Below, one piece after another: positions 1,134-10,678 of a stretch of DNA of 20,519 bases. The position numbers and the translations under genes are program-made. Source of the stretch: a virus; the IMG/VR virus record IMGVR_UViG_3300022822_000585, positions 1 through 20,519 of that record; one strand, 5' to 3'. Under the pieces are notes generated by a model that was given only the letters and a program-made list of their open reading frames with translations, was not told the origin of the DNA and did not search any database. How positions within the stretch are numbered: the first letter of the stretch is position 1; each line of letters starts with the position of its first letter.

Positions 1134-1336
1134 TAAGTTGCAAAGTGTTGACGCACTACTGCTAGTTTGTCCTCATACTCTGCAATCTGTGCAATTTCAG
1201 CTTCTACTGCCGACATCCAGTCAGTGTGGTCATGAATAGCCATGGGATTGTGCAGCATGATCTCCACATTCATCTTGTGTTTTTGAACCTGTGCCGAAAA
1301 GTGTGCTTGCAATGTTGTTAATAGTTGATCTCTCAT
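1133..1336 (-). CDS. Small conserved phage hypothetical protein
   Basis: A 67-aa soluble helical protein, MRDQLLTTLQAHFSAQVQ at the start, with a central LHNPMAIHDHTDWM followed by a Glu/Ala-rich helix (AVEAEIAQIAEYEDKLAVV) that could form a short coiled coil. It is joined to glyA upstream by an ATGA overlap and to the next gene by TAATG, so all three are probably translated from one message. I do not recognise a known domain. Small proteins with an HDHTD-like segment and a helical tail occur in T4-like aquatic phages, which supports this being a real gene rather than a chance frame. Confidence 0.8.
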   Translation of the reverse strand: MRDQLLTTLQAHFSAQVQKHKMNVEIMLHNPMAIHDHTDWMSAVEAEIAQIAEYEDKLAVVRQHFAT

Positions 1337-2484
1337 TTTGAATCCCTTAGTATGTTAACCATTCTGTTGGCCAGCTCTTTGAACCACGCTTCGTCATGAC
1401 CGCGAGTGGTTTCTGCTGCTACACCAATACGCACACCTGATGTCTCAACAAAGCTTCTTGTGTCGCCAGGCACTCCGTTTTTATTTGCAGTGATACCATT
1501 TGCTTCCAACAAGTCAGCAAACTCGCGTCCACTGTATTGTTCTTTACGCAAGTCTATAGTCATCATGTGACACTGAGTCCCACCAGACACAATATCAACA
1601 CCGGCATCCATAAACGTTTGTGCCATTGCATGTGCATTGATACGGATACGTTTGGCGTACAACGTAAACTCTGGCTGCAATGCTTCGTAGAAACACTGTG
1701 CCTTGGCTGCAATGATGTGCATCAATGGACCGCCCTGTGTGCCTGGGAAAATAGCACTGTTGATCAGTTTGGAGTGGTCGGGATCATTCCATAAAATCAT
1801 GCCGCCACGCGGGCCGCGCAGTCCTTTGTGTGTTGTGGTTGTTACAATGTCAGCATGGGGGAACGGGCTGGGATACTCGCCGCCTGCGATTAGACCTGAA
1901 TAGTGAGCAATGTCTGCCAACAGCAGAGCACCCACGCTGGCTGCAATCTCTTCAAAACGGGCCCAGTCAATCACTTGACTGTAAGCACTGGCGCCAGCAA
2001 TCACCATTTTAGGTTGAGTGTCCCATACCAACTGTGCCACAGCATCGTAATCAATTAGTCCCTGTTCATTGACTCCGTAACTGTGTGAGTTGAACCAAGC
2101 GCCGCTGGCATTGACTTTGGCACCGTGACTTAAATGCCCACCACTGGCCAAGTCCATACCTACAATAACATCACCTGGCTTTAGAAATGCCTTGAATACT
2201 GCTAGGTTAGCATTGGCACCGGAGTGTGGTTGAACATTAGCAAAGGAACAATTAAATAGTTTGGTGGCATACTCAATAGCCAGTAGTTCTACCTTGTCTA
2301 CTTCATCGCAGCCATTGTAATAACGCTTGCCTGGCAGTCCTTCTGCATACTTGTTTGTGAAGATACTGCCACAGAGTTGCATCACTTCATCACTAGCAAA
2401 GTTCTCACTGGCAATCAGTTCAACTGTGTCTGCTTGGCGAATGCCTTCTGCAGATAATATACTTAAAATACGTTTATCAATCAT
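1333..2484 (-). CDS. glyA: Serine hydroxymethyltransferase
   Basis: A PLP enzyme converting serine plus tetrahydrofolate to glycine plus 5,10-methylene-THF, the carbon donor for thymidylate synthesis. The 383-residue protein carries the family signatures: LIASENF (23-29), NKYAEGLPGKRYYNGCD (44-60), QPHSGANAN (85-93), DIAHYSGLIA (191-200, with PLP-contacting Asp191 and His194) and TTTTHKGLRGPRGG (215-228), where Lys220 forms the internal aldimine. It is about 34 residues shorter than E. coli GlyA; the loss is at the C-terminus, which ends soon after ANRMVNILRDSK. A perfect sigma-70 promoter lies 38-66 nt upstream, and the gene leads a small operon towards nrdB. In a phage it most likely supports nucleotide synthesis together with RNR. 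Confidence 0.97.
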   Translation of the reverse strand: MIDKRILSILSAEGIRQADTVELIASENFASDEVMQLCGSIFTNKYAEGLPGKRYYNGCDEVDKVELLAIEYATKLFNCSFANVQPHSGANANLAVFKAFLKPGDVIVGMDLASGGHLSHGAKVNASGAWFNSHSYGVNEQGLIDYDAVAQLVWDTQPKMVIAGASAYSQVIDWARFEEIAASVGALLLADIAHYSGLIAGGEYPSPFPHADIVTTTTHKGLRGPRGGMILWNDPDHSKLINSAIFPGTQGGPLMHIIAAKAQCFYEALQPEFTLYAKRIRINAHAMAQTFMDAGVDIVSGGTQCHMMTIDLRKEQYSGREFADLLEANGITANKNGVPGDTRSFVETSGVRIGVAAETTRGHDEAWFKELANRMVNILRDSK

Positions 2485-2521
2485 TTTAGTTGTTTTCTCA
2501 TAATGTCTTGCTCACTATATA

Positions 2522-2550
2522 ATTATACATTTTTATTCATCTTGTGTCAA
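2522..2550 (-). promoter_or_regulatory. Perfect consensus sigma-70 promoter upstream of glyA
   Basis: On the minus strand TTGACA (2550-2545), a 17-nt spacer, then TATAAT (2527-2522): all 12 consensus bases with optimal spacing. The predicted start is near 2514-2516, about 30 nt before the glyA ATG. It needs only host RNA polymerase, so glyA and the genes leading to nrdB could be expressed immediately after infection. Confidence 0.85.
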
Positions 2551-2599
2551 CATCCCAAGTGAGTTTTCCAAAAATCAGTTTAACTAAGTCTGCATTCAT
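2537..2599 (-). other. Possible 20-codon ORF resembling the N-terminus of cytochrome bo3 oxidase subunit I
   Basis: A short open frame between coq7 and glyA encodes a 20-residue peptide containing LIFGKLTWD before stopping at TGA 2537-2539. From memory, CyoB (cytochrome bo-type ubiquinol oxidase subunit I) proteins begin with a very similar FGKLTWDA-type segment. The last codons overlap the -35 box of the glyA promoter. No good ribosome-binding site is visible. It may be a relic of a captured host gene or chance similarity. Confidence 0.25.
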
Positions 2600-2619
2600 A
2601 TTGTATCTTCTGTATATAG

Positions 2620-2645
2620 GTTCCGTGCAATAACTGCACGACAAC
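2620..2645 (-). other. Hairpin in the coq7-glyA intergenic region
   Basis: A perfect 6-bp stem CGTGCA / TGCACG with a 5-nt loop, extended by GTT / AAC pairs across a small bulge. No T-run follows on either strand, so it does not look like an intrinsic terminator. It sits between coq7 and the glyA promoter, just downstream of a late-like box AATAAATAC (2681-2674). It could be an mRNA processing or stability element. The rest of the 216-base gap (2485-2700) holds only the promoter and short ORF listed separately. Confidence 0.35.
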
Positions 2646-2700
2646 AATGGTTTATTTTAAGTATTTGAATGCGTATTTATTCATATCTCAGTGTTTGTAC

Positions 2701-3327
2701 TTATATTCTGTAAGCGACAGTAGTCATAATCTTACTAACTGCTTTCATGACAGATTTAGCACTTTTAGGAAGTTCTGTAGCGCCAGCGTGTACCGCTGCG
2801 GCGCCGTGTGCTGCTTCATCTTGTTTCATCTGTGTTATAATAACTCGACTAGCGTGATCATTCACAGGCAATTTCGACAAGTGATCTGCCAGATGCTGTT
2901 CCACTTGCCTTTCTGTTTCTGCTACAAATCCCAAACTTTGAGCATCGCCGCCTATTTTACCAGCTGCGTACCCCATTGCAAATGCTCCAATGTACCAAAT
3001 AGGATTCAGTAGGCTAGGCTTACCTCCCAATTGGTCTAATCTCTGCCGGCACCATACTAGGTGATCTACTTCTTCTCGACCTGCTTTTTCAAACAGGTTT
3101 TTAAGTGCAGAGTCTTGAGTGGCTAGGCATTGTCCACTATACAATGCTTGGGCGCACACTTCCCCTACGTGATTCACTCGCATTAATGCTGCACTGTGAT
3201 TGTTTTCTTTTTCAGTCAGTTCGGCAGTATCGGCTTTGCAAGTTGGTGACGATCTGCTAGCATAGGGTTTTGAAAACAGTGTGCGCAGGGCACAGTCAGC
3301 GGCGATTAATAAATGGTCTATATTCAT
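2701..3327 (-). CDS. coq7: Coq7-type demethoxyubiquinone hydroxylase
   Basis: A ferritin-like di-iron monooxygenase that hydroxylates 2-polyprenyl-3-methyl-6-methoxy-1,4-benzoquinone in the penultimate step of ubiquinone synthesis, acting at the inner membrane. The 208-aa protein has the family ligand set: MRVNHVGEVCAQALY (Glu56), REEVDHLVWC (Glu86, His89), AETERQVEQHL (Glu139) and QDEAAHG (Glu171, His174). SLLNPIWYIGAFAMGYAAG (105-123) is the family's hydrophobic segment, and the protein ends in MTTVAYRI, as many betaproteobacterial homologues do. Its ATG lies 7 nt after the fpr stop, so it is co-transcribed with fpr and AOX. All ligands are intact, so an active enzyme is expected. Its presence next to a quinol oxidase suggests the phage manipulates the host quinone pool. 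Confidence 0.95.
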   Translation of the reverse strand: MNIDHLLIAADCALRTLFSKPYASRSSPTCKADTAELTEKENNHSAALMRVNHVGEVCAQALYSGQCLATQDSALKNLFEKAGREEVDHLVWCRQRLDQLGGKPSLLNPIWYIGAFAMGYAAGKIGGDAQSLGFVAETERQVEQHLADHLSKLPVNDHASRVIITQMKQDEAAHGAAAVHAGATELPKSAKSVMKAVSKIMTTVAYRI

Positions 3328-3333
3328 ATCTTA

Positions 3334-4080
3334 TTATGTATCCACGAACGCTCGTTCGATTATGTACTGCCCTGGGTCACGCAAACTGCCTTCTTTCATA
3401 CCTTGTTGTTCACACCACAGCATGATTTCTTTATTAAAAGCCATGTTTCCGCACAGCATGATTTTGTCTTGTGCAGGGTCTATTGCCAACTTACCCGAAC
3501 TTAGTTGAGTCGTGATTCTGGGATCGCCCTGACCAGTAACCACAGGTTGATAATCCATCAGACTTTTGATTGTGGCATGTAGCTCACCGGATCTGTGATG
3601 ATCCAAGAATGCTGTGTGCAACTCACGGCGATATGCCAAATCTGCTGCATCTCTTACGCTGTGTACCAAATGAATCCGAGACCAAGTTTCCAAAGTTTCC
3701 AAGTCTTGAATCAGACTCATAAACGGTGCTAGACCAGTGCCAGTGGCTAGTAACCATAGTTCGCCGCCTTTGAGTAAAGCATCATTTCGCAGTGTGCCAG
3801 TAGGCTTGTCACCTATAATGACTTGATCGCCTATCTTGATATGTTGCAATCGACTGGTCAATGCACCATCGGCTATTTTAATACTGAGAAACTCTAGTTC
3901 TTCACTCCAAGGCGGACTCACCATACTGTAGGCTCTGCGAATACGTTTTCCTTCGTGCATAACACCAATTAATACAAATTCGCCAGCGTTAAATCTAAAT
4001 GCAGAGTTTCTAGTAGTCCTTAAACTGAAAGTTCGATCACTCCAGTGATGTACAGCAGTGACTGTTTCTTCAAATATCAT
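3334..4080 (-). CDS. fpr: Ferredoxin/flavodoxin-NADP+ reductase
   Basis: A bacterial-type FAD enzyme passing electrons between NADPH and ferredoxin or flavodoxin. Counting from ATG 4080 (248 aa): FAD-binding RRAYSMVSP at 48-56, DGALTSRLQ at 71-79, and the NADP(H)-binding glycine-rich LLATGTGLAPF at 110-120. The C-terminus GQYIIERAFVDT matches the Fpr group whose tail stacks near the flavin. A GTG six bases earlier (4086) is in frame, but the ATG has the better-placed GGAA. It lies between AOX and coq7 on the same strand. Possible jobs are feeding Fe-S assembly, reductive repair of the NrdB radical centre through a host ferredoxin, or supplying the Coq7 reaction; the sequence cannot choose among these. 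Confidence 0.95.
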   Translation of the reverse strand: MIFEETVTAVHHWSDRTFSLRTTRNSAFRFNAGEFVLIGVMHEGKRIRRAYSMVSPPWSEELEFLSIKIADGALTSRLQHIKIGDQVIIGDKPTGTLRNDALLKGGELWLLATGTGLAPFMSLIQDLETLETWSRIHLVHSVRDAADLAYRRELHTAFLDHHRSGELHATIKSLMDYQPVVTGQGDPRITTQLSSGKLAIDPAQDKIMLCGNMAFNKEIMLWCEQQGMKEGSLRDPGQYIIERAFVDT

Positions 4081-4104
4081 TCGCACTATTCCAAATAATT
4101 TGTT

Positions 4105-4707
4105 TTACTTTTTAGTATCGTAATCGTCAGCATACGCATGGTTCACTTCGCTGTGTCCTTGTTCATCGGCCCTTACCGCTATTATAACATCTCTAAGTCT
4201 AGCGTCAACAGGTAAATTCCAATAATCGATGGCTAATTGTGGTGCAGGCACATTGAGCTCTGGATTGGAATCAACCTGGGCCAGATAATCTGTGTAACTG
4301 ATCACTGCTTCTTCTTCAAAATAGCCCACAATCCTATGTGCTGTGCGGGGGAAGAATATATAGATGAACAAGAACACATGCCAGAAAACAAATTGCGCCA
4401 CAAGCACCAACATACGTTCAAACCAATTAGGTTTGACGATTTCAATAAATGTCATCAAGTGCATACGTTCGTTTTCTGCCTCAGCTAACAACATTCGAAT
4501 CTTGGGACCATATCCTGTTTTCATCTGACGTAGACTTTTAAGATGCGTCCACATTCCTGCAACCATGCCAGGCACGGCTGCTACTGTTTCTAGTACAACT
4601 GCTCTGTGTCCGTACTGTTTTAGAAAGAATGTATCTGCTACCCAGCGCAGCATCATAGTAAATCGTTTTGCGTTGCGGTCGCTGATAGTAGTAGGGATAT
4701 GATGCAT
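4105..4707 (-). CDS. aox: Alternative oxidase (cyanide-insensitive quinol oxidase)
   Basis: A membrane-bound di-iron quinol oxidase that reduces oxygen to water with electrons from ubiquinol, without pumping protons. The 200-aa sequence contains every family motif: LETVAAVPGMV (Glu40), AENERMHLMTF (Glu80, His83), GYFEEEAVISYT (128-139, one of Glu131-133 as ligand) and RADEQGHSEVNH (Glu182, His185). A hydrophobic stretch at 100-119 fits the membrane-embedded helix. LPVD and PAPQLAIDYW match mitochondrial/proteobacterial AOX rather than the plastid-type PTOX of cyanophages. The N-terminus is short, with no targeting peptide. The ATG follows directly on the aldolase stop (TAA-ATG), so translation is probably coupled. 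Confidence 0.96.
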   Translation of the reverse strand: MHHIPTTISDRNAKRFTMMLRWVADTFFLKQYGHRAVVLETVAAVPGMVAGMWTHLKSLRQMKTGYGPKIRMLLAEAENERMHLMTFIEIVKPNWFERMLVLVAQFVFWHVFLFIYIFFPRTAHRIVGYFEEEAVISYTDYLAQVDSNPELNVPAPQLAIDYWNLPVDARLRDVIIAVRADEQGHSEVNHAYADDYDTKK

Positions 4708-5364
4708 TTAATATTTTCCACTTGCTAACACAATTTTGCAAATATGTTCCAATCTCTCTACATGTTCATACGCCCGCCATGGTGTTGTGTCAATAGCAAC
4801 AACACCGTGTCCTTTGATACCTACGATGTCATAGGCAGTATTACCGTCTTTATCTAGTTCTAAATTCCAGTGGCATTGATCTGCAAGTTCCTGACTGATA
4901 GGAGCAACATCTCCTACATTAGGCGCAACTCGAGTATAGCGATTAAGTTCTGGAAACGCATCACTAACTGTGCTTAAATTAATGCCAGCATGCATTGCTG
5001 CAATACAGTAAGTAGGATGTACATGTACAACTACTCGAACTTCACCCGCATGTTGGCCCATTTCTTTTTGTAAGCCAAAGTGCAATGGAATCTCACCGCT
5101 TGGTGTTAAGTTCTTACTAATATCAGTATAAGGTAACTCTTGCCAGCTATAGTTAATGGCAGCAGTACCGTGACCACTATGTATAGTTTTATCAATACCA
5201 ATCTTTTTAAACTGATCAGGTTGCAGAGTCTGCTTTCGGACACCACTAGGTGTAATGTAAAAGTGGTCTCTATCGTGATGGCGAATACTCACGTTGCCGT
5301 CACGGCTGGTAATCCAATTGCGTTTATACGCATCTAACATCACATCACATATTGTTTCTAACAT
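4708..5364 (-). CDS. Class II aldolase/adducin family protein (fuculose-phosphate aldolase-like)
   Basis: A 218-aa Zn-dependent class II aldolase fold, close in length to E. coli FucA (215 aa). Motifs: TSRDGNVSIR (19-28, phosphate loop), YITPSGVR (37-43), SGEIPLH (89-95, catalytic Glu91), VVHVHPTY (112-119, Zn ligands His114 and His116) and IKGHGVVAID (183-192, third Zn ligand His186). All metal ligands are present, so it should be active, but the substrate could be a sugar phosphate (fuculose- or ribulose-type) or a methylthioribulose-phosphate-like compound. The start at 5364 avoids 75 bases of overlap with iscA. It sits 4 nt after the iscA stop and abuts AOX, so it belongs to the same operon. 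Confidence 0.92.
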   Translation of the reverse strand: MLETICDVMLDAYKRNWITSRDGNVSIRHHDRDHFYITPSGVRKQTLQPDQFKKIGIDKTIHSGHGTAAINYSWQELPYTDISKNLTPSGEIPLHFGLQKEMGQHAGEVRVVVHVHPTYCIAAMHAGINLSTVSDAFPELNRYTRVAPNVGDVAPISQELADQCHWNLELDKDGNTAYDIVGIKGHGVVAIDTTPWRAYEHVERLEHICKIVLASGKY

Positions 5365-5368
5365 TACT

Positions 5369-5695
5369 TTATACTCTAAAACTTTCACCGCAACCACACC
5401 GGTCACGCTCGTTGGGGTTAGTAAATTCAAACCCCTCATTCAATCCATTGCGTACCCAATCCACAACTATTCCGTTTAGGTAGGGTTCATCTTTGGTGCT
5501 TATTAATACAGCAAACTTAGATTGAGCATAATTTGTTACACCCTCCTCGTACTCGATGCTGTCTACATATTCTAACACATATGCCAATCCACTGCAACCA
5601 GTAGTTCTAACTGCTATTCGAATACCCACACCCTTGCCACGGCGTTCTAAATTCTGGCTAATTCGTTTACTTGCTGTTTCGGTTACGGTAATCAT
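5369..5695 (-). CDS. iscA: Iron-sulfur cluster assembly protein IscA
   Basis: An A-type Fe-S/iron carrier of 108 residues. The three conserved cysteines are at TTGCSG (Cys34) and in the C-terminal CGCGESF (Cys100, Cys102), corresponding to E. coli IscA Cys35/99/101. FTNPNERDRCGCGESF supports IscA rather than ErpA or HesB types. The ATG directly follows the iscU stop (TAG-ATG), with an AAGG inside the end of iscU as Shine-Dalgarno, indicating tight coupling. HesB/IscA-like genes are well known in marine phages; pairing with a full IscU is less common. It may load Fe-S clusters or iron on phage or host enzymes in the operon. Confidence 0.96.
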   Translation of the reverse strand: MITVTETASKRISQNLERRGKGVGIRIAVRTTGCSGLAYVLEYVDSIEYEEGVTNYAQSKFAVLISTKDEPYLNGIVVDWVRNGLNEGFEFTNPNERDRCGCGESFRV

Positions 5696-6088
5696 CTATC
5701 GCAGCCTTGATTGCTTTGTTTTGTAATCTAAAATTGCTGCTTTAAGACTATCTTCAGCCAAAATGCTGCAATGAATTTTTACGGGCGGAAGCGCCAACTC
5801 CTCTGCAATCTGACTATTTTTAATAGTGCTTGCTTGATCCAATGTCAATCCTTTTATCATTTCTGTTACAAGGCTTGAACTTGCAATTGCACTGCCACAT
5901 CCATATGCCTTGAACTTTGCATCAATTATAATATCTGTCGCTGGATCAACTTTAATACTTAACTGTAAAAGGTCACCGCATGCCGGTGCTCCGACGAGTC
6001 CAAAACCTACATCACTATCTTTTTTATTAAGAGTTCCTACATTTCTGGGGTTCTCATAATGGTCCACCACAGCAGCTGAATAAGCCAT
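5696..6088 (-). CDS. iscU: Iron-sulfur cluster scaffold IscU
   Basis: A scaffold on which IscS builds [2Fe-2S] clusters. The 130-aa protein is complete: PACGD (Cys37, Asp39), YGCGSAIASSS (Cys64), the chaperone-recognition motif LPPVK (100-104) and KIHCSILAEDS (His106, Cys107). N-terminal YENPRNVG is also typical. All ligands and the HscA-binding motif remain, so it could plug directly into the host Isc machinery; no phage IscS or HscA is seen here. Its Shine-Dalgarno (TAGGAG, 8 nt upstream) lies within the last codons of the preceding HNH endonuclease, so that insertion left iscU translation intact. Confidence 0.97.
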   Translation of the reverse strand: MAYSAAVVDHYENPRNVGTLNKKDSDVGFGLVGAPACGDLLQLSIKVDPATDIIIDAKFKAYGCGSAIASSSLVTEMIKGLTLDQASTIKNSQIAEELALPPVKIHCSILAEDSLKAAILDYKTKQSRLR

Positions 6089-6089
6089 T

Positions 6090-6695
6090 TTAATCTCCTA
6101 TTATAGATTGTACTACTTCCATCGGTTGATCAAAATGCCATTTACGACGATTCTCTTCACCCGTTATAAACTGTATATTATTTCGTTGTCCTAACAATAT
6201 AGGATCTATTCCTAACTTAAACCCTTGCATTATAGAAATAATGTGATCTAATTGCAAGTCTGTAGGATGTTTCCCACAAGTTGGTATCTGCTCTCCAGCC
6301 TGTTTCATTTTTTTAAGGGTTCTATATGTTGCGTACCTGACTTTGCTTCGATACAGTTTTAACAAATCAGTTTGCGGATTTTTTAGTCTTAGATTATTAG
6401 TCTTACCTTCCCAGTTAGGATTATTTTCGCCCTTCCATTTCAGACTTTGTGTTTCACTGGACAATCCCTTATTCCAGCCCCACCCTTTCTTTAATCCTTC
6501 TGTATTCTGTTTGGCTTTTTGTTCTTCTGTAAGTTTGATACCTTTGTTCCATGGTTCATACTCTCCTCGGTTCAACGGGTTTTTGCATTTCTGAGAACAA
6601 TAATCTAAAAATCGTGGACGAGTTTCAAATTCACTCTTACAAAATAAACACTGTTTAAAATTACCATACTTGTTTTTCATACAAATATTTATCAT
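6090..6695 (-). CDS. HNH homing endonuclease with NUMOD3-like segment
   Basis: A 201-aa free-standing homing endonuclease. Residues 16-37 form a small Zn-finger (CLFC...CSQKC). Residues 49-98 carry NUMOD3-like DNA-binding repeats (PWNKGIK, WNKGLS, KWKGENNPNWEGK). The HNH nuclease follows: LQLDHIISIMQGF (148-159), GID at 162-164, RNNIQFITGEENRRKWH (171-187). It is inserted between sodB and iscU, 18 nt after the sodB stop. A late-like box AATAAATA (6718-6711) overlaps that stop, suggesting late expression as for T4 endonucleases. No clear Shine-Dalgarno is visible; Met6 (6680) is an alternative start. It is a mobile element, unlikely to help the metabolic genes around it. Confidence 0.93.
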   Translation of the reverse strand: MINICMKNKYGNFKQCLFCKSEFETRPRFLDYCSQKCKNPLNRGEYEPWNKGIKLTEEQKAKQNTEGLKKGWGWNKGLSSETQSLKWKGENNPNWEGKTNNLRLKNPQTDLLKLYRSKVRYATYRTLKKMKQAGEQIPTCGKHPTDLQLDHIISIMQGFKLGIDPILLGQRNNIQFITGEENRRKWHFDQPMEVVQSIIGD

Positions 6696-6710: not shown

Positions 6711-6718
6711 TATTTATT
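6711..6718 (-). promoter_or_regulatory. Candidate late promoter for the HNH endonuclease
   Basis: AATAAATA on the minus strand (7 of 8 to TATAAATA), overlapping the sodB stop. T4-type spacing would put transcription start near 6705, ten bases before the endonuclease ATG. It lacks the CT that follows most other boxes here. Confidence 0.4.
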
Positions 6719-7316
6719 GGTTACTTTGGCTGAGTACGACATTTATTGTTCTCCAGTTTATTATCTTCCAGATGTTCTGCAAGTATTTCTTTTTGTCTGC
6801 TTGATAGTCCAGGGCCCATGCATGTTCCCACCAATCAATCAACAACACAATGTCATTGCGTACTTCGTGGTTCACAATAGTTTTGATCTTGCCATCCTGT
6901 GCCAAGTACACCCATCCACTACCTTGTATCTTCATGGCCACAGTTTCGACTTGGTCTCGGAATGCATCATAGGTTTTATAATGCTGTTCGATAAACGCTA
7001 AACTGGCATCGTAAGGTCTATTAGCACCTTGTGGTGCATGTAATTGACCAAAGTATATGTTGTGCAGAAATGCGCCGGCTTCATTGAAATCAGCATCGCC
7101 TTCGCCTTTGTTGTAACGATCAACATAGCCCTTATACAAAGTGCCGTAGTGATAGTCAAGAGTTTCTTTGCTCTTGACAGGTGCCAAATCTGTAGGTTTG
7201 TAAGGCAAAGGCAAATGAAACAATTTGTCTTTTTTTCCTTCTAGGAGGACATTTCTAATAAAATTATAAGCCATTATAGTTTGTCCAGTCGGTGTCAAGA
7301 GTTGGAATCCATCCAC
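6714..7316 (-). CDS. sodB: Fe/Mn-family superoxide dismutase
   Basis: Dismutes superoxide to oxygen and hydrogen peroxide. Numbered from ATG 7316 (200 aa), the four metal ligands are His56 (LDYHYG), His85 (FLHNIYF), Asp161 and His165 (LIDWWEHAWALDY); GSGWVYLAQDGKI (132-144) is the usual core. Outer-sphere positions are atypical: Gly81 four residues before His85, as in MnSOD, and His150 where Gln or Ala is usual, so metal preference is uncertain. The protein has an N-terminal extension before LPLPYKPTDLAP. ATG 7316 has AGGAG but only 3 nt spacing; an internal ATG at 7274 (MAYNFIRNVLL) is an equally reasonable start. It lies between nrdA-b and the HNH insertion, upstream of the Fe-S genes. Confidence 0.92.
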   Translation of the reverse strand: MDGFQLLTPTGQTIMAYNFIRNVLLEGKKDKLFHLPLPYKPTDLAPVKSKETLDYHYGTLYKGYVDRYNKGEGDADFNEAGAFLHNIYFGQLHAPQGANRPYDASLAFIEQHYKTYDAFRDQVETVAMKIQGSGWVYLAQDGKIKTIVNHEVRNDIVLLIDWWEHAWALDYQADKKKYLQNIWKIINWRTINVVLSQSNQ

Positions 7317-7384
7317 TCCTAAAATATTTTATCATATTCATATATGTCCTATTACTTTACTTTCATTAGTATAACATTTTCCGT

Positions 7385-8401
7385 TTACAACTTACAAGAT
7401 AAACAATCTTCCTCGTCATCAAAGTTAATTGGTTCTAGCATAGTAGGCGCATCGTCTGCAGCCATCTTGCTGCCTGCTTTGTTAATTAAACTGTAGTAGA
7501 AGGTCTTAAGGCCCCATATATGCGCCTGCATCAAGTTCTTGGCAATTAATGTAGTTGGCACTTTACGATTTGGAAAGTGTGCTGGATTGTAGAATGTGTT
7601 AGTACTAATACTTTGGTCAGTGTAGGCCGCAATAACAGCCGCTGTCTTAATGTAACCAACGCAGTCTTTCTGCTCCCACATCAGCTGATACTTGTTCTTC
7701 AACTTGTTATATTCGGGAGCAACTTGCGTAAACGATCCTGCTTTTGATTCTTTAGTGGTAATTAAACTCATTGGCATTTCAATACCATTGGTACTGTCGA
7801 TAACCACTGAACTAGACTCAACAGGAGCAACTGCACCATTGGTAGCATTGCGCACACCGTGGATTAACATTTCTTTGCGTAACGTTTCCCAATCTAATTC
7901 AGGAGTAAAGTCGGTTAACTCGTTAACGCCCTTAGCACGTAGTTCCCAAGGAAATATTCCTTGACCGTAACGAGTATGGTCGCTGTCTAAACACTTACCA
8001 CGCTCTTTAGCTAGTTCAACTGACATTTCTGTTAAGTAGAATGACTGGTGCTCTTGCCAGCTCTTAACCTCAGCCAGTGCATCTTTCTCACCGTACTTAA
8101 GGCTGCGCTTGGCATGCCAGTATGCTAGGTTAGTAATGCCAATGCCCAATGGGCGAATCTCATCGTTACTGAGTTTACTCTGTATCGACAAAAAGTCTTG
8201 ATAGTCAAGAATGTTATTTAGGCTACGATGTAGAATTCTACAAGCTCTACGCATATCCTCTGGGTTCCGGAACGCTCCCCAGTTCATAGATCCCAAGGTA
8301 CACAGGGACACTCTGCCCTCGACTTCATCAATTTCATAATACTCGTATTCGTCATCTAGTTCTTCCGGTAGACATTCTATCTCTTCATATAATGCGTTCA
8401 T
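7385..8401 (-). CDS. nrdA: Ribonucleotide reductase large subunit, C-terminal fragment (NrdA-b)
   Basis: The downstream half of a split class Ia NrdA, 338 aa. VSLCTLGSMNWGAF (31-44) holds Cys34, the equivalent of redox Cys462 of E. coli NrdA. APVESSSVV and the GLKTFYYS segment (radical-transfer Tyr pair, E. coli Tyr730/731) follow, and the C-terminal CLSCKL (Cys333, Cys336) is the thioredoxin-reducible tail. The first 29 residues are extra compared with intact NrdA and strongly acidic (13 Asp/Glu, no Lys/Arg). A proper start exists: AGGA six bases before ATG 8401, placed just after the endonuclease stop. It must assemble with NrdA-a to be active, since the catalytic Cys439 equivalent is in the other piece. 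Confidence 0.95.
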   Translation of the reverse strand: MNALYEEIECLPEELDDEYEYYEIDEVEGRVSLCTLGSMNWGAFRNPEDMRRACRILHRSLNNILDYQDFLSIQSKLSNDEIRPLGIGITNLAYWHAKRSLKYGEKDALAEVKSWQEHQSFYLTEMSVELAKERGKCLDSDHTRYGQGIFPWELRAKGVNELTDFTPELDWETLRKEMLIHGVRNATNGAVAPVESSSVVIDSTNGIEMPMSLITTKESKAGSFTQVAPEYNKLKNKYQLMWEQKDCVGYIKTAAVIAAYTDQSISTNTFYNPAHFPNRKVPTTLIAKNLMQAHIWGLKTFYYSLINKAGSKMAADDAPTMLEPINFDDEEDCLSCKL

Positions 8402-8409
8402 TGTTCATC

Positions 8410-9141
8410 CTAGTTATTTCTTAAAAGTTTGCCATGTTTTATCAAAAGATGTCTACTTATTCCAGTTGCATCTATTGCCTCAACTAATGTGTTATATGTA
8501 ACATCATTATATTTTATTTTTGGGTCAGCATTGGCTCTTTTTGCTTTTTTTACGCCATCACTGTTTATTTTACTTTTTTCACTATCTGTTAGATATTGTT
8601 TTTCCTTAAACTCATATATAACATTTCTGTTGTTAGTAAGTTTACGACACTTATATCCTTTATAGTGTCCTCTATTGCCTCTTGCTACAGCACTCATTGC
8701 ACTAGCATTTAATCCATTATTTCGACAAAATTCTAACATATTTTCTAAAATTAAATGTTCGCCGGTTGGAGTAGTAATTTCCCAAGTATCTGTTAGTTTT
8801 GCTTTTTGTTCAGCAGACATTGGAAGATTTTTATTGCCGCCACCATCAATGCCGTTTTCTTCAATTAGGTTTGCCCAAATTCTTTCACCGTCTGTGTTCC
8901 TAGCATTTACAATATTATTTTCTTTGCTAAAATTAATAGCAAATTGATATATCTGGTCTTTGTTCTCAAATAATTGACACCATACTGTTTCAACTTCGGT
9001 GCCGTGTTCTTTAAGATGCCTTTTCCAATAAGTACCAGACCCTAGATATTTTATAGGGTCTTTTCCGGTAGTTTTACAAAGATATTTCAATCCAGTAATT
9101 TTATGTTTCTTAATCATTAGCCACGTGGGTGTAAAAGTCAT
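8410..9141 (-). CDS. Free-standing homing endonuclease splitting nrdA (GIY-YIG/Seg-like with NUMOD1/IENR1 motif)
   Basis: A 243-aa protein inserted between the two nrdA halves. Its N-terminus (residues 8-45: LMIKKHKITGLKYLCKTTG, KYLGSGTYWKRHL) and EERIWANL-type and GIDGG segments (to about 100) match a family of phage Seg-like homing endonucleases distantly related to GIY-YIG enzymes; assignment is by resemblance only. Residues 132-168 (NMLEFCRNNGLNASAMSAVARG, GYKCRKL) fit a NUMOD1/IENR1 helix-turn-helix DNA-binding repeat, with a second partial one near the C-terminus. Members I recall usually have YFGKT where this has YLCKT, so nuclease activity is uncertain. A hairpin covering its ribosome-binding site and a late-like promoter in the loop suggest T4-style timing control. 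Confidence 0.85.
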   Translation of the reverse strand: MTFTPTWLMIKKHKITGLKYLCKTTGKDPIKYLGSGTYWKRHLKEHGTEVETVWCQLFENKDQIYQFAINFSKENNIVNARNTDGERIWANLIEENGIDGGGNKNLPMSAEQKAKLTDTWEITTPTGEHLILENMLEFCRNNGLNASAMSAVARGNRGHYKGYKCRKLTNNRNVIYEFKEKQYLTDSEKSKINSDGVKKAKRANADPKIKYNDVTYNTLVEAIDATGISRHLLIKHGKLLRNN

Positions 9142-9149
9142 TTATTATT

Positions 9150-9193
9150 CCTAAAGTACATTGTAGTTATTTATCATTACTATGTACTTTAGG
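9150..9193 (-). promoter_or_regulatory. Ribosome-binding-site hairpin upstream of the endonuclease
   Basis: A perfect 12-bp inverted repeat, CCTAAAGTACAT (9193-9182) and ATGTACTTTAGG (9161-9150), with a 20-nt loop. The 3' arm ends in TTTAGG, so in transcripts reading through from nrdA-a the Shine-Dalgarno (TAGGA) for the endonuclease at 9141 would be buried. No T-run follows, so it is not a terminator. The layout copies the I-TevI control known in phage T4. Confidence 0.75.
9168..9175 (-). promoter_or_regulatory. Candidate late promoter inside the hairpin loop
   Basis: GATAAATA, 7 of 8 to the T4 late box. With T4 spacing (+1 six bases beyond the box) RNA would start near 9162, leaving out the 5' arm of the hairpin and exposing the ribosome-binding site for the endonuclease. 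Confidence 0.55.
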
Positions 9194-9202
9194 CACGTTT
9201 AA

Positions 9203-10678
9203 CTATGATATCTTTCTGATCTTAACTATATCATTAGACTTGTTTTTCATAAACTCATCTACCTTATCTTTTTTAACACGAACTGTCTTTCGTGTTGGAT
9301 CCAGGCGTTTGAATGATTTGGTTGGTAATAGAATCTCACAACACAAGTTACTTTGATAAATCGCATGATATTCAGGATTGAAAGGCCCTTGGTTCATTAC
9401 ATTATCAATGAATACAAGATATATTCGACCTGTGTCCGTGCGTTCCTTCAAAATACCACTCTTGAACACTTCTTCAGCACTCATAGTCTTTTTACGTAGA
9501 CCTTTCTGCTTTTCGTACTTGACATACAGTTCTTCAAACAAAGAGGTATCTCTGTAGAACGCTTCATACAAGTCAGGTACTTCATTAGGGTCAAAGAATG
9601 TTATTTGTTCTTTGTTCTTGAACCGTCTCCAGAAGAAGGCAGAAAGAACCACTCCGTAATCCATATGTCGGACTCGAGTTTCTTCAGTGCCTTGATTATT
9701 TTTAAGCACAATAAGATCATCAAACTGATGATGCCAAATAGGATAAAACACTGTAGCACTAGCATTACGAATTCCACCTTGTGAACATGAACGCAAATCA
9801 CCAAACCATTTCTTTAAGAACGGTATCATGCCTGTGTGTTGAATTTCCCCGCCACGAATCGGGGCACCTAATGAACGTAGACGTCCAATTTCTAAACCAA
9901 TGCCAGCACGTTTGCTAGCATACTTTGCCATCATCTCACCAGATGCAAAAATACTATCCAAGTCATCATCGCTACGAATAAGAACACAGCTACTAAATTG
10001 CTTAGTAGGAGTGCCCAAACCGGCCAAGACCGGAGTTGCAAGAGTAAAGAGTCCATCACTAGCTGCATTGTAATATTCTTTGATGTAACGCATACGTGCG
10101 CCGCTTGGTTCTTCTTTGTGAAAAATCGTAGCAGATGCAACCATGTATCTAATCTGTGGAGTTTCGTAAATTTCCTTTGTTGCACGATTACGTACCAAGT
10201 ACTTTTCAATTAACTGTTCAATGGCTGCATATCCATACTGTTCATCTTTTTCATGATCCAGCATGTCATCCATCTTGTTCCACTCGTCTTGACTGTACCA
10301 GTCTAATAATTCACTAGTGTACAGGCCAACAGCAACATTCTTCTTTACAATTTCGTAAAGGTGGGGAACTTCATATGACTCATATACATTCTTCCTCAAC
10401 ATTGATAGCCGCTGTTTACCTGCTACATATTGATAGTTAGTATGTCCTACATCGGGATTTTGTTCTACATCGATTAGGTCAACAATAGCACGTAATGTGA
10501 TACCGTCAATTTCTTCTGTTGTTATGTTATCGTAAAAGTGCAATTGCGCTTTAATCTCAATCATTGACTGACTGACATCTGCAATACCTTTACATACTTT
10601 TGCGATCTGTGCCTGCCACTTCTCGATCATCAATGGCTCTTTCGCTCCACTTCTTTTTATTACCGTAATCGTTGTCAT
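9203..10678 (-). CDS. nrdA: Ribonucleotide reductase large subunit, N-terminal fragment (NrdA-a)
   Basis: The upstream half of split class Ia NrdA, 491 aa. Residues 1-90 are an ATP-cone (VIKRSGAKEPL, TTEEIDGITLRAIVDLID), so ATP/dATP activity control is likely kept. The catalytic barrel begins with TPTKQFSSCVLI (Cys231, E. coli Cys225) and has QSNLCCEILLPTK (Asn444, Cys446, Glu448, matching E. coli Asn437, Cys439, Glu441). Homology ends near FKRLD (456-460); the last 31 residues are foreign and basic. The matching C-terminal cysteine (Cys462 equivalent) is in NrdA-b. GAGG six bases before ATG 10678 is a good ribosome-binding site. Aeromonas phage Aeh1 is a known precedent for a split NrdA that works as two polypeptides. 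Confidence 0.96.
   Translation of the reverse strand: MTTITVIKRSGAKEPLMIEKWQAQIAKVCKGIADVSQSMIEIKAQLHFYDNITTEEIDGITLRAIVDLIDVEQNPDVGHTNYQYVAGKQRLSMLRKNVYESYEVPHLYEIVKKNVAVGLYTSELLDWYSQDEWNKMDDMLDHEKDEQYGYAAIEQLIEKYLVRNRATKEIYETPQIRYMVASATIFHKEEPSGARMRYIKEYYNAASDGLFTLATPVLAGLGTPTKQFSSCVLIRSDDDLDSIFASGEMMAKYASKRAGIGLEIGRLRSLGAPIRGGEIQHTGMIPFLKKWFGDLRSCSQGGIRNASATVFYPIWHHQFDDLIVLKNNQGTEETRVRHMDYGVVLSAFFWRRFKNKEQITFFDPNEVPDLYEAFYRDTSLFEELYVKYEKQKGLRKKTMSAEEVFKSGILKERTDTGRIYLVFIDNVMNQGPFNPEYHAIYQSNLCCEILLPTKSFKRLDPTRKTVRVKKDKVDEFMKNKSNDIVKIRKIS

Follow-up and report, generated by a model that had tools for sequence, protein, structure and literature searches.

We report here a virus in which nrdA, the gene for the large subunit of ribonucleotide reductase (RNR), is divided into two reading frames by a putative homing endonuclease gene (HEG), and we consider it probable that the oppositely charged ends carried by the two NrdA pieces at the break are the coding flanks of a mobile HEG cassette, forming a split docking module that lets the broken NrdA reassemble. 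The stretch analyzed (hereafter the window) is the 20,519-bp virus record IMGVR_UViG_3300022822_000585, positions 1-20,519. On its minus strand, nrdA-a (9203..10678) is followed by an open reading frame (ORF) of 243 aa (8410..9141), which aligns over its full length with a GIY-YIG homing endonuclease of the related locus L090, and then by nrdA-b (7385..8401). The cassette (8303..9320, minus strand) comprises the codons for a basic tail, residues 457-491 of NrdA-a (KRLDPTRKTVRVKKDKVDEFMKNKSNDIVKIRKIS; 9206..9310, minus strand), the HEG, and the codons for an acidic head, residues 1-29 of NrdA-b (MNALYEEIECLPEELDDEYEYYEIDEVEG; 8315..8401, minus strand).

NrdA-a contains the ATP cone, the all-alpha domain and the first part of the RNR barrel (up to profile position 222), with the basic tail at its end, while NrdA-b opens with the acidic head and carries the remaining barrel (profile positions 223-522) and the C-terminal redox cysteines. 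The barrel profile is broken cleanly between positions 222 and 223, and the break falls between the equivalents of Glu441 and Cys462 (E. coli numbers). NrdA-a has the SNLCCE motif, whose N, C and E we take to have active-site roles; NrdA-b has the following Cys, a pair of Tyr (YY) and two C-terminal Cys, to which we assign such roles as well. The catalytic residues thus appear, as read from the sequence, to be shared out between the two pieces.

Comparison with relatives revealed that the ends and the HEG belong together. Among the 80 closest viral loci, 71 encode an intact NrdA with a short linker, which runs like EILLPTKSFKRLDD..GRIALC and is devoid of tail and head segments; six are split and have the same acidic head, and three end before the linker. 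The DNA of the window matches that of the intact locus L004 from position 9321 upward and from 8302 downward, and between these points 1018 bp in the window (8303-9320), consisting of tail codons, ORF and head codons, stand against 46 bp in L004. The first-pass annotation had singled out positions 8299-9310 for their charged ends, a span that nearly coincides with this inserted stretch. When the window was compared with L133, which is split but carries another HEG type, the similarity continued through the tail and the head and broke off in the HEG. Tail codons, HEG and head codons differ as one block between relatives. The presence/absence pattern of free-standing homing endonucleases was found for the window and L004, and again for the Escherichia phage HY01 and phage T6.

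In this second pair, the nrdA sequences flanking the site are approximately 96% identical at the DNA level. The T6 linker is short and uninterrupted, while HY01 has 933 bp, encoding a tail, a HEG and a head, in place of 29 bp in T6; phage PEC04 shows the same arrangement as HY01. A further case is L176: compared with four phages that bear the same tail, its NrdA-a is only 50-52% identical. The 127 bp that cover its tail are 92.9% identical to L166, compared with 66-71% in other nrdA matches, and its short gap retains a stretch resembling a HEG end. These two comparisons argue that the cassette is mobile. On a tree built from 66 NrdA cores, split forms are scattered; their distribution takes a minimum of 8 changes, starred branches forcing 4 of these, and the nearest row to the window is the intact L004 (91% identity). 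The tree is a quick one with long-branch warnings, in which the NrdA-a of L007 and L086 was shortened; it excludes identical rows, ten named-phage rows and any row in which one of the two parts has fewer than 280 residues. Apart from this, T6 (L155) has a HEG between nrdA and nrdB where HY01 (L150) has none, the HY01 HEG lying inside nrdA. Annotation can miss a split nrdA, because the HY01 record has no coding sequence annotated for either NrdA piece (1193-4364), although both are open reading frames.

The same kind of junction recurs widely. The head residues EELDDEYEY, searched for as a DNA pattern, matched 35 viral contigs, and all 35 matches proved to be NrdA-b heads. Together with further scans using tail and head alignments and two named-phage cases, this resulted in 32 distinct junctions, 28 obtained by a text-pattern rule and four added from reading loci that the rule missed. 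A junction is counted here as distinct DNA at the ends and not as a distinct virus, with L001 standing for the window's own; 13 NrdA-b matches with no NrdA-a on the contig were set aside, and loci with NrdA-a only (e.g. L134, L138 and L149) are uncounted. Each of the 32 junctions combines a basic tail (net +3 to +11) with an acidic head (-9 to -14), and tail and head together measure 67-78 residues. A HEG is present in 27 of them: the window type in 3, the GIY-YIG type of L090 in 13, the GIY-YIG type of L108 in 9, and the Aeromonas phage Aeh1 MobE and the HY01 HEG in one each. The remaining five lack a HEG and keep both ends, with gaps of 7, 45, 36, 216 and 597 nt (the value of 36 was taken from coordinates). 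The tails, once present, are not easily lost: the HEG may be swapped or deleted, and the tails stay under selection.

Two tail types were observed. The second (VAMGTT...KLKKLK) pairs with a head ending in DEDAARIS in every freshwater locus showing both, with the exception of the divergent L176, whose head ends in YEDTSRIS. Other searches were less productive. One alignment used in a viral scan gave 600 stretches from patterns, none confirmed as a relative; in the phage collection the window tail query matched nothing and the window head query hit nothing beyond the native last 13-14 residues; and a tail profile found no match among solved structures and no locus in a search of genome contigs. 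Small ORFs of one recurring family (63-96 aa, MNE.IK.LA...), often beside a HEG, were also seen in the nrdA-break gaps of L011, L091, L099, L107-L109, L111, L133, L134 and L141.

The charge of the two ends had been described in the first-pass annotation, and on recounting its figures were right: residues 457-491 of NrdA-a contain 13 Lys/Arg and 5 Asp/Glu, and residues 1-29 of NrdA-b contain 13 Asp/Glu and no Lys/Arg. Its estimate of about 77 residues across the break also holds, as 76 residues lie between Glu448 of NrdA-a and Cys34 of NrdA-b (77 positions); in E. coli NrdA, E441 and C462 are 21 positions apart, and in the intact relatives we counted 20 residues between the equivalents. Among the 27 window ORFs used, NrdA-a has the most basic 35-residue C-terminus and NrdA-b the most acidic 29-residue N-terminus. 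When sliding windows were taken over the window ORFs, 22 of 5086 were equally basic and 3 of 5248 equally acidic, these windows being overlapping and including the tails themselves. The end charges exceed chance.

Any insertion into a reading frame adds residues, and the tail and head are lineage-specific when set against intact NrdA. One could hence regard them as functionless by-products, reached by read-through into the inserted element up to the next stop or start codon. We find this very improbable. In split loci with the first tail type, the ratio of non-synonymous to synonymous polymorphism (pN/pS), calculated from simple pooled pair counts with synonymous sites close to saturation, is 0.21 across 35 tail codons (19 sequences) and 0.10 across 31 head codons (16 sequences), comparable to or below the values of the flanking catalytic parts (0.15 and 0.20). 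Moreover, the ends are conserved where the HEG has been replaced or is gone, and their total length stays within the same narrow range in all 32 junctions. Tail and head are real protein under purifying selection.

The first-pass annotation had gone on to suggest an electrostatic zipper, evolved or selected to hold the two pieces together. The selected part is borne out by the pN/pS values and by the opposite charge kept in 32 of 32 junctions. That the ends evolved in place is not supported by the comparisons with L004, of HY01 with T6 and of L176, in which they arrive with a mobile cassette. In its pure form, this explanation sees two disordered, oppositely charged ends without specific fold, tuned by selection in this lineage, and it agrees with the charge counts of the window and the constancy of the signs. 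Still, we judge it unlikely, and as a description of the ends it is too narrow. In the tail alignment (29 columns), K2, K7, K8 and F14 are invariant and I4 and M15 nearly so, which means that spacing and hydrophobic positions are conserved too; the HY01 tail has a net charge of merely +3; and the ends belong to a mobile unit. Read by eye from the alignment, the spacing of the tail's hydrophobic residues suggests a strand-helix-strand-like pattern, and together with the fixed Phe it suggests a fold besides charge. Because the tail keeps this hydrophobic pattern, a small structured docking module fits better than a bare zipper.

HEGs often sit in introns and inteins, and some of these nrdA genes do contain a split intein elsewhere. 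If RNA or protein splicing removed the ends, a one-chain NrdA with a normal linker would result. Of all the explanations, we give this one the least credence. There was no Rfam match in the window nrdA region (E <= 1) or in ten loci (gathering scores), which gives no sign of a group I or II intron around the HEG, and no intein family was detected in the window NrdA-a or NrdA-b by the method that detects one in L007. Inteins typically begin with Cys and end with His-Asn, and the sequence has neither a Cys at the tail start nor a His-Asn before Cys462. The selection on the ends acts at the protein level, which also speaks against their removal. As for the split intein itself, L101 (reverse complement of 7369-10451) and L007 (1-2604) have NrdA in three pieces, in the order short N-intein-like end (DLRSC|CVTPDTWVEV...), 381-aa ORF, C-intein half joined to SQGG, and tail/head break, the last lying 45 nt before NrdA-b; L086 has the same C-intein half. 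Owing to this split intein at another site, the L101 and L007 phages use two different repairs for two nrdA breaks.

A further explanation concerns where the module came from and is compatible with docking: the ends could be the halves of a native insert domain that was broken by HEGs, the intact state being preserved in Acinetobacter phages. In these phages and in Stenotrophomonas phage RAS14, NrdA is intact and holds an insert of 61-71 residues in its single chain at this position (L151, L156, L158-L160); the insert is close in length to the split forms, and MAFFT aligns parts of it with the tail and the head. Of Acinetobacter phages, 73 records matched, 68 of them over at least 80% of the query, and in a viral scan another alignment matched only four Acinetobacter-phage-like loci. 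On the other hand, the sequence similarity is weak, the inserts are not among the eight best matches of a hidden Markov model (HMM) of the freshwater tails, and between T6 and HY01 a gene without insert gains tail, HEG and head at once. We therefore see this origin as possible but rather doubtful. The first-pass annotation had named the same segments inside the intact NrdA of relatives as a sign against its zipper; an insert does lie at that place, and its kinship to the tails is only suggestive. Were the kinship true, tail and head would be halves of one domain.

We next consider the HEG and its closest known counterpart, the split NrdA of Aeh1. The front part of the window HEG resembles the GIY-YIG type and is not HNH by Pfam, while its C-terminal part (approximately residues 103-240) is also common to Aeh1 MobE, an HNH enzyme, and to the HY01 HEG, which is HNH/NUMOD-like; with MobE, the identity in the C-terminal part is 30.6% over 170 aa (8e-20). 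In 50,697 phage records, 33 matched the window HEG at E <= 2e-14, Aeh1 twice and 31 enterobacterial records. Compared by eye, these 31 are the same 31 accessions that match an Aeh1 tail query (residues 1-31, 51.6%), and the nrdA region was read in 2 of the 31. Weaker HEG matches in two cyanophages and one Vibrio phage were rejected, since their positions are not in nrdA.

Aeh1 NrdA is split at profile position 221/222, practically where the window is (222/223), with a tail containing ...MLFKVKKSEVDKF... and a head starting MIEHERIYEVYEDEEYTTVEIEV.... Aeh1 belongs to another phage group, its NrdA-a is approximately 41% identical to that of the window, and some window relatives, unlike Aeh1, keep their tails without a HEG. 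When the freshwater-tail HMM was run against 2721 ORFs, the HY01 tail ranked first (10.6 bits) and the Aeh1 tail second (8.5 bits), both in the right place, followed by the next match at 5.4 bits; the best shuffled sequence also reached 5.4. The Aeh1 tail is recognizably similar to the window-type tail, and the heads of Aeh1 and HY01 resemble each other (46% identity). The HY01-type split NrdA of Tequatrovirus shares site, basic tail, HEG and acidic head with the window and differs in its HEG type and in its NrdA, which comes from another phage lineage (40% identity).

According to Crona et al. 2011, the Aeh1 tails are reportedly needed for activity and act as interaction domains. Reviews describe the Aeh1 alpha subunit as two polypeptides (PMC3267527) and the split enzyme as functional (PMC2988022); PMC10448857 still counts 'at least one instance' of a split of this kind, and PMC3653736 presents Aeh1 as its nrdA-a/nrdA-b case. 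The principle is already known from Aeh1, and the spread, the nuclease swapping and the persistence without HEG look new. In the literature searched, which left most subscription papers outside, we found no report that describes such tails outside Aeh1, their transfer or forms lacking the HEG, which is weak evidence of absence. There the Aeh1 split reductase has been a single curiosity; its split and its kind of ends are now seen in at least 32 distinct junctions from several phage lineages, with the nuclease exchanged or lost. Split inteins with a HEG between the halves, the 'fractured genes' said to have been described by Dassa in 2009, likewise combine a HEG with two flanking coding halves that rescue a broken host gene; the difference is that no splicing takes place in the window NrdA and the two chains would remain separate. 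To our knowledge, neither a HEG nor matching tails accompany NrdJa/NrdJb of gamma-proteobacteria. These belong to another RNR class (class II), and the likeness is that the large subunit consists of two chains (PMC3267527).

Our model suggests that the HEG would recognize the codons lying between Glu441 and Cys462 in an nrdA without interruption, and would cut there. Repair from an interrupted copy would then insert everything between the homologous flanks, so that the tail and head codons would be copied with the HEG. The interrupted gene would give two chains, in which the basic tail, predicted to form a strand (KTVRVKK) and a helix, would dock with the acidic head, predicted to form a strand (YEYYEID), and by the precedent of Aeh1 the docked NrdA-a and NrdA-b would act as one alpha chain. 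Opposite charge probably helps to orient and speed this association, and a shared hydrophobic sheet is probably needed too.

Several results weigh against this docking cassette. The window HEG has no significant Pfam match, and is hence a putative endonuclease. In two AlphaFold models, with a mean predicted local distance difference test (pLDDT) of 51 and 55, tail-head contacts are not readable. The first covered the barrel part of L097, in which the two intergenic stop codons were translated as Gly, and had an unusable core (pLDDT 51); the second covered a 107-residue module of tail, linker and head, its pLDDT of 55 being reached by one of five models. The only longer strands in this model are tail residues 21-27 and head residues 84-90, which may pair, and there are low-confidence hints of a tail strand-helix and a head strand. 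Whether or not composition was corrected for, the head HMM failed to pick out the heads of Aeh1 (rank 74) and HY01 (rank 20), and consequently the kinship of the heads among the three lineages is judged from their position, their charge and the tails they pair with. Finally, a scattered split state could also arise if intact alleles precisely replaced split ones, so that gain and loss of this state are not told apart in the tree, whose sample was picked by likeness to the window.

Beyond docking as such, the tail and head could together make up a portable docking module in two halves, comparable to a split intein but without splicing, that moves between distant nrdA genes, associates with at least 3 kinds of nuclease, outlives the nuclease and makes an essential coding sequence a harmless landing site; we regard this wider proposal as evenly balanced between true and false. 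If it is true, the two ends could serve as a natural, orthogonal heterodimer tag. A general route also becomes testable, by which mobile genes enter essential coding sequences without introns or inteins and bring a docking pair with them, and natural tail and head variants are available to separate charge from fold in assembly.

Elsewhere in the window lie several respiration-type genes, encoding COQ7 (2701-3327), an FAD/NAD reductase (3334-4086), an alternative oxidase (4105-4707) and a class II aldolase (4708-5439). An Fe-S biosynthesis protein (5369-5695), an ORF that looks IscU-like by eye (5696-6088) and an Fe/Mn superoxide dismutase (6714-7316) are also encoded there. The ORF at 6090-6695, which lies between the IscU-like ORF and the superoxide dismutase gene and has no Pfam match, looks HNH/NUMOD-like.

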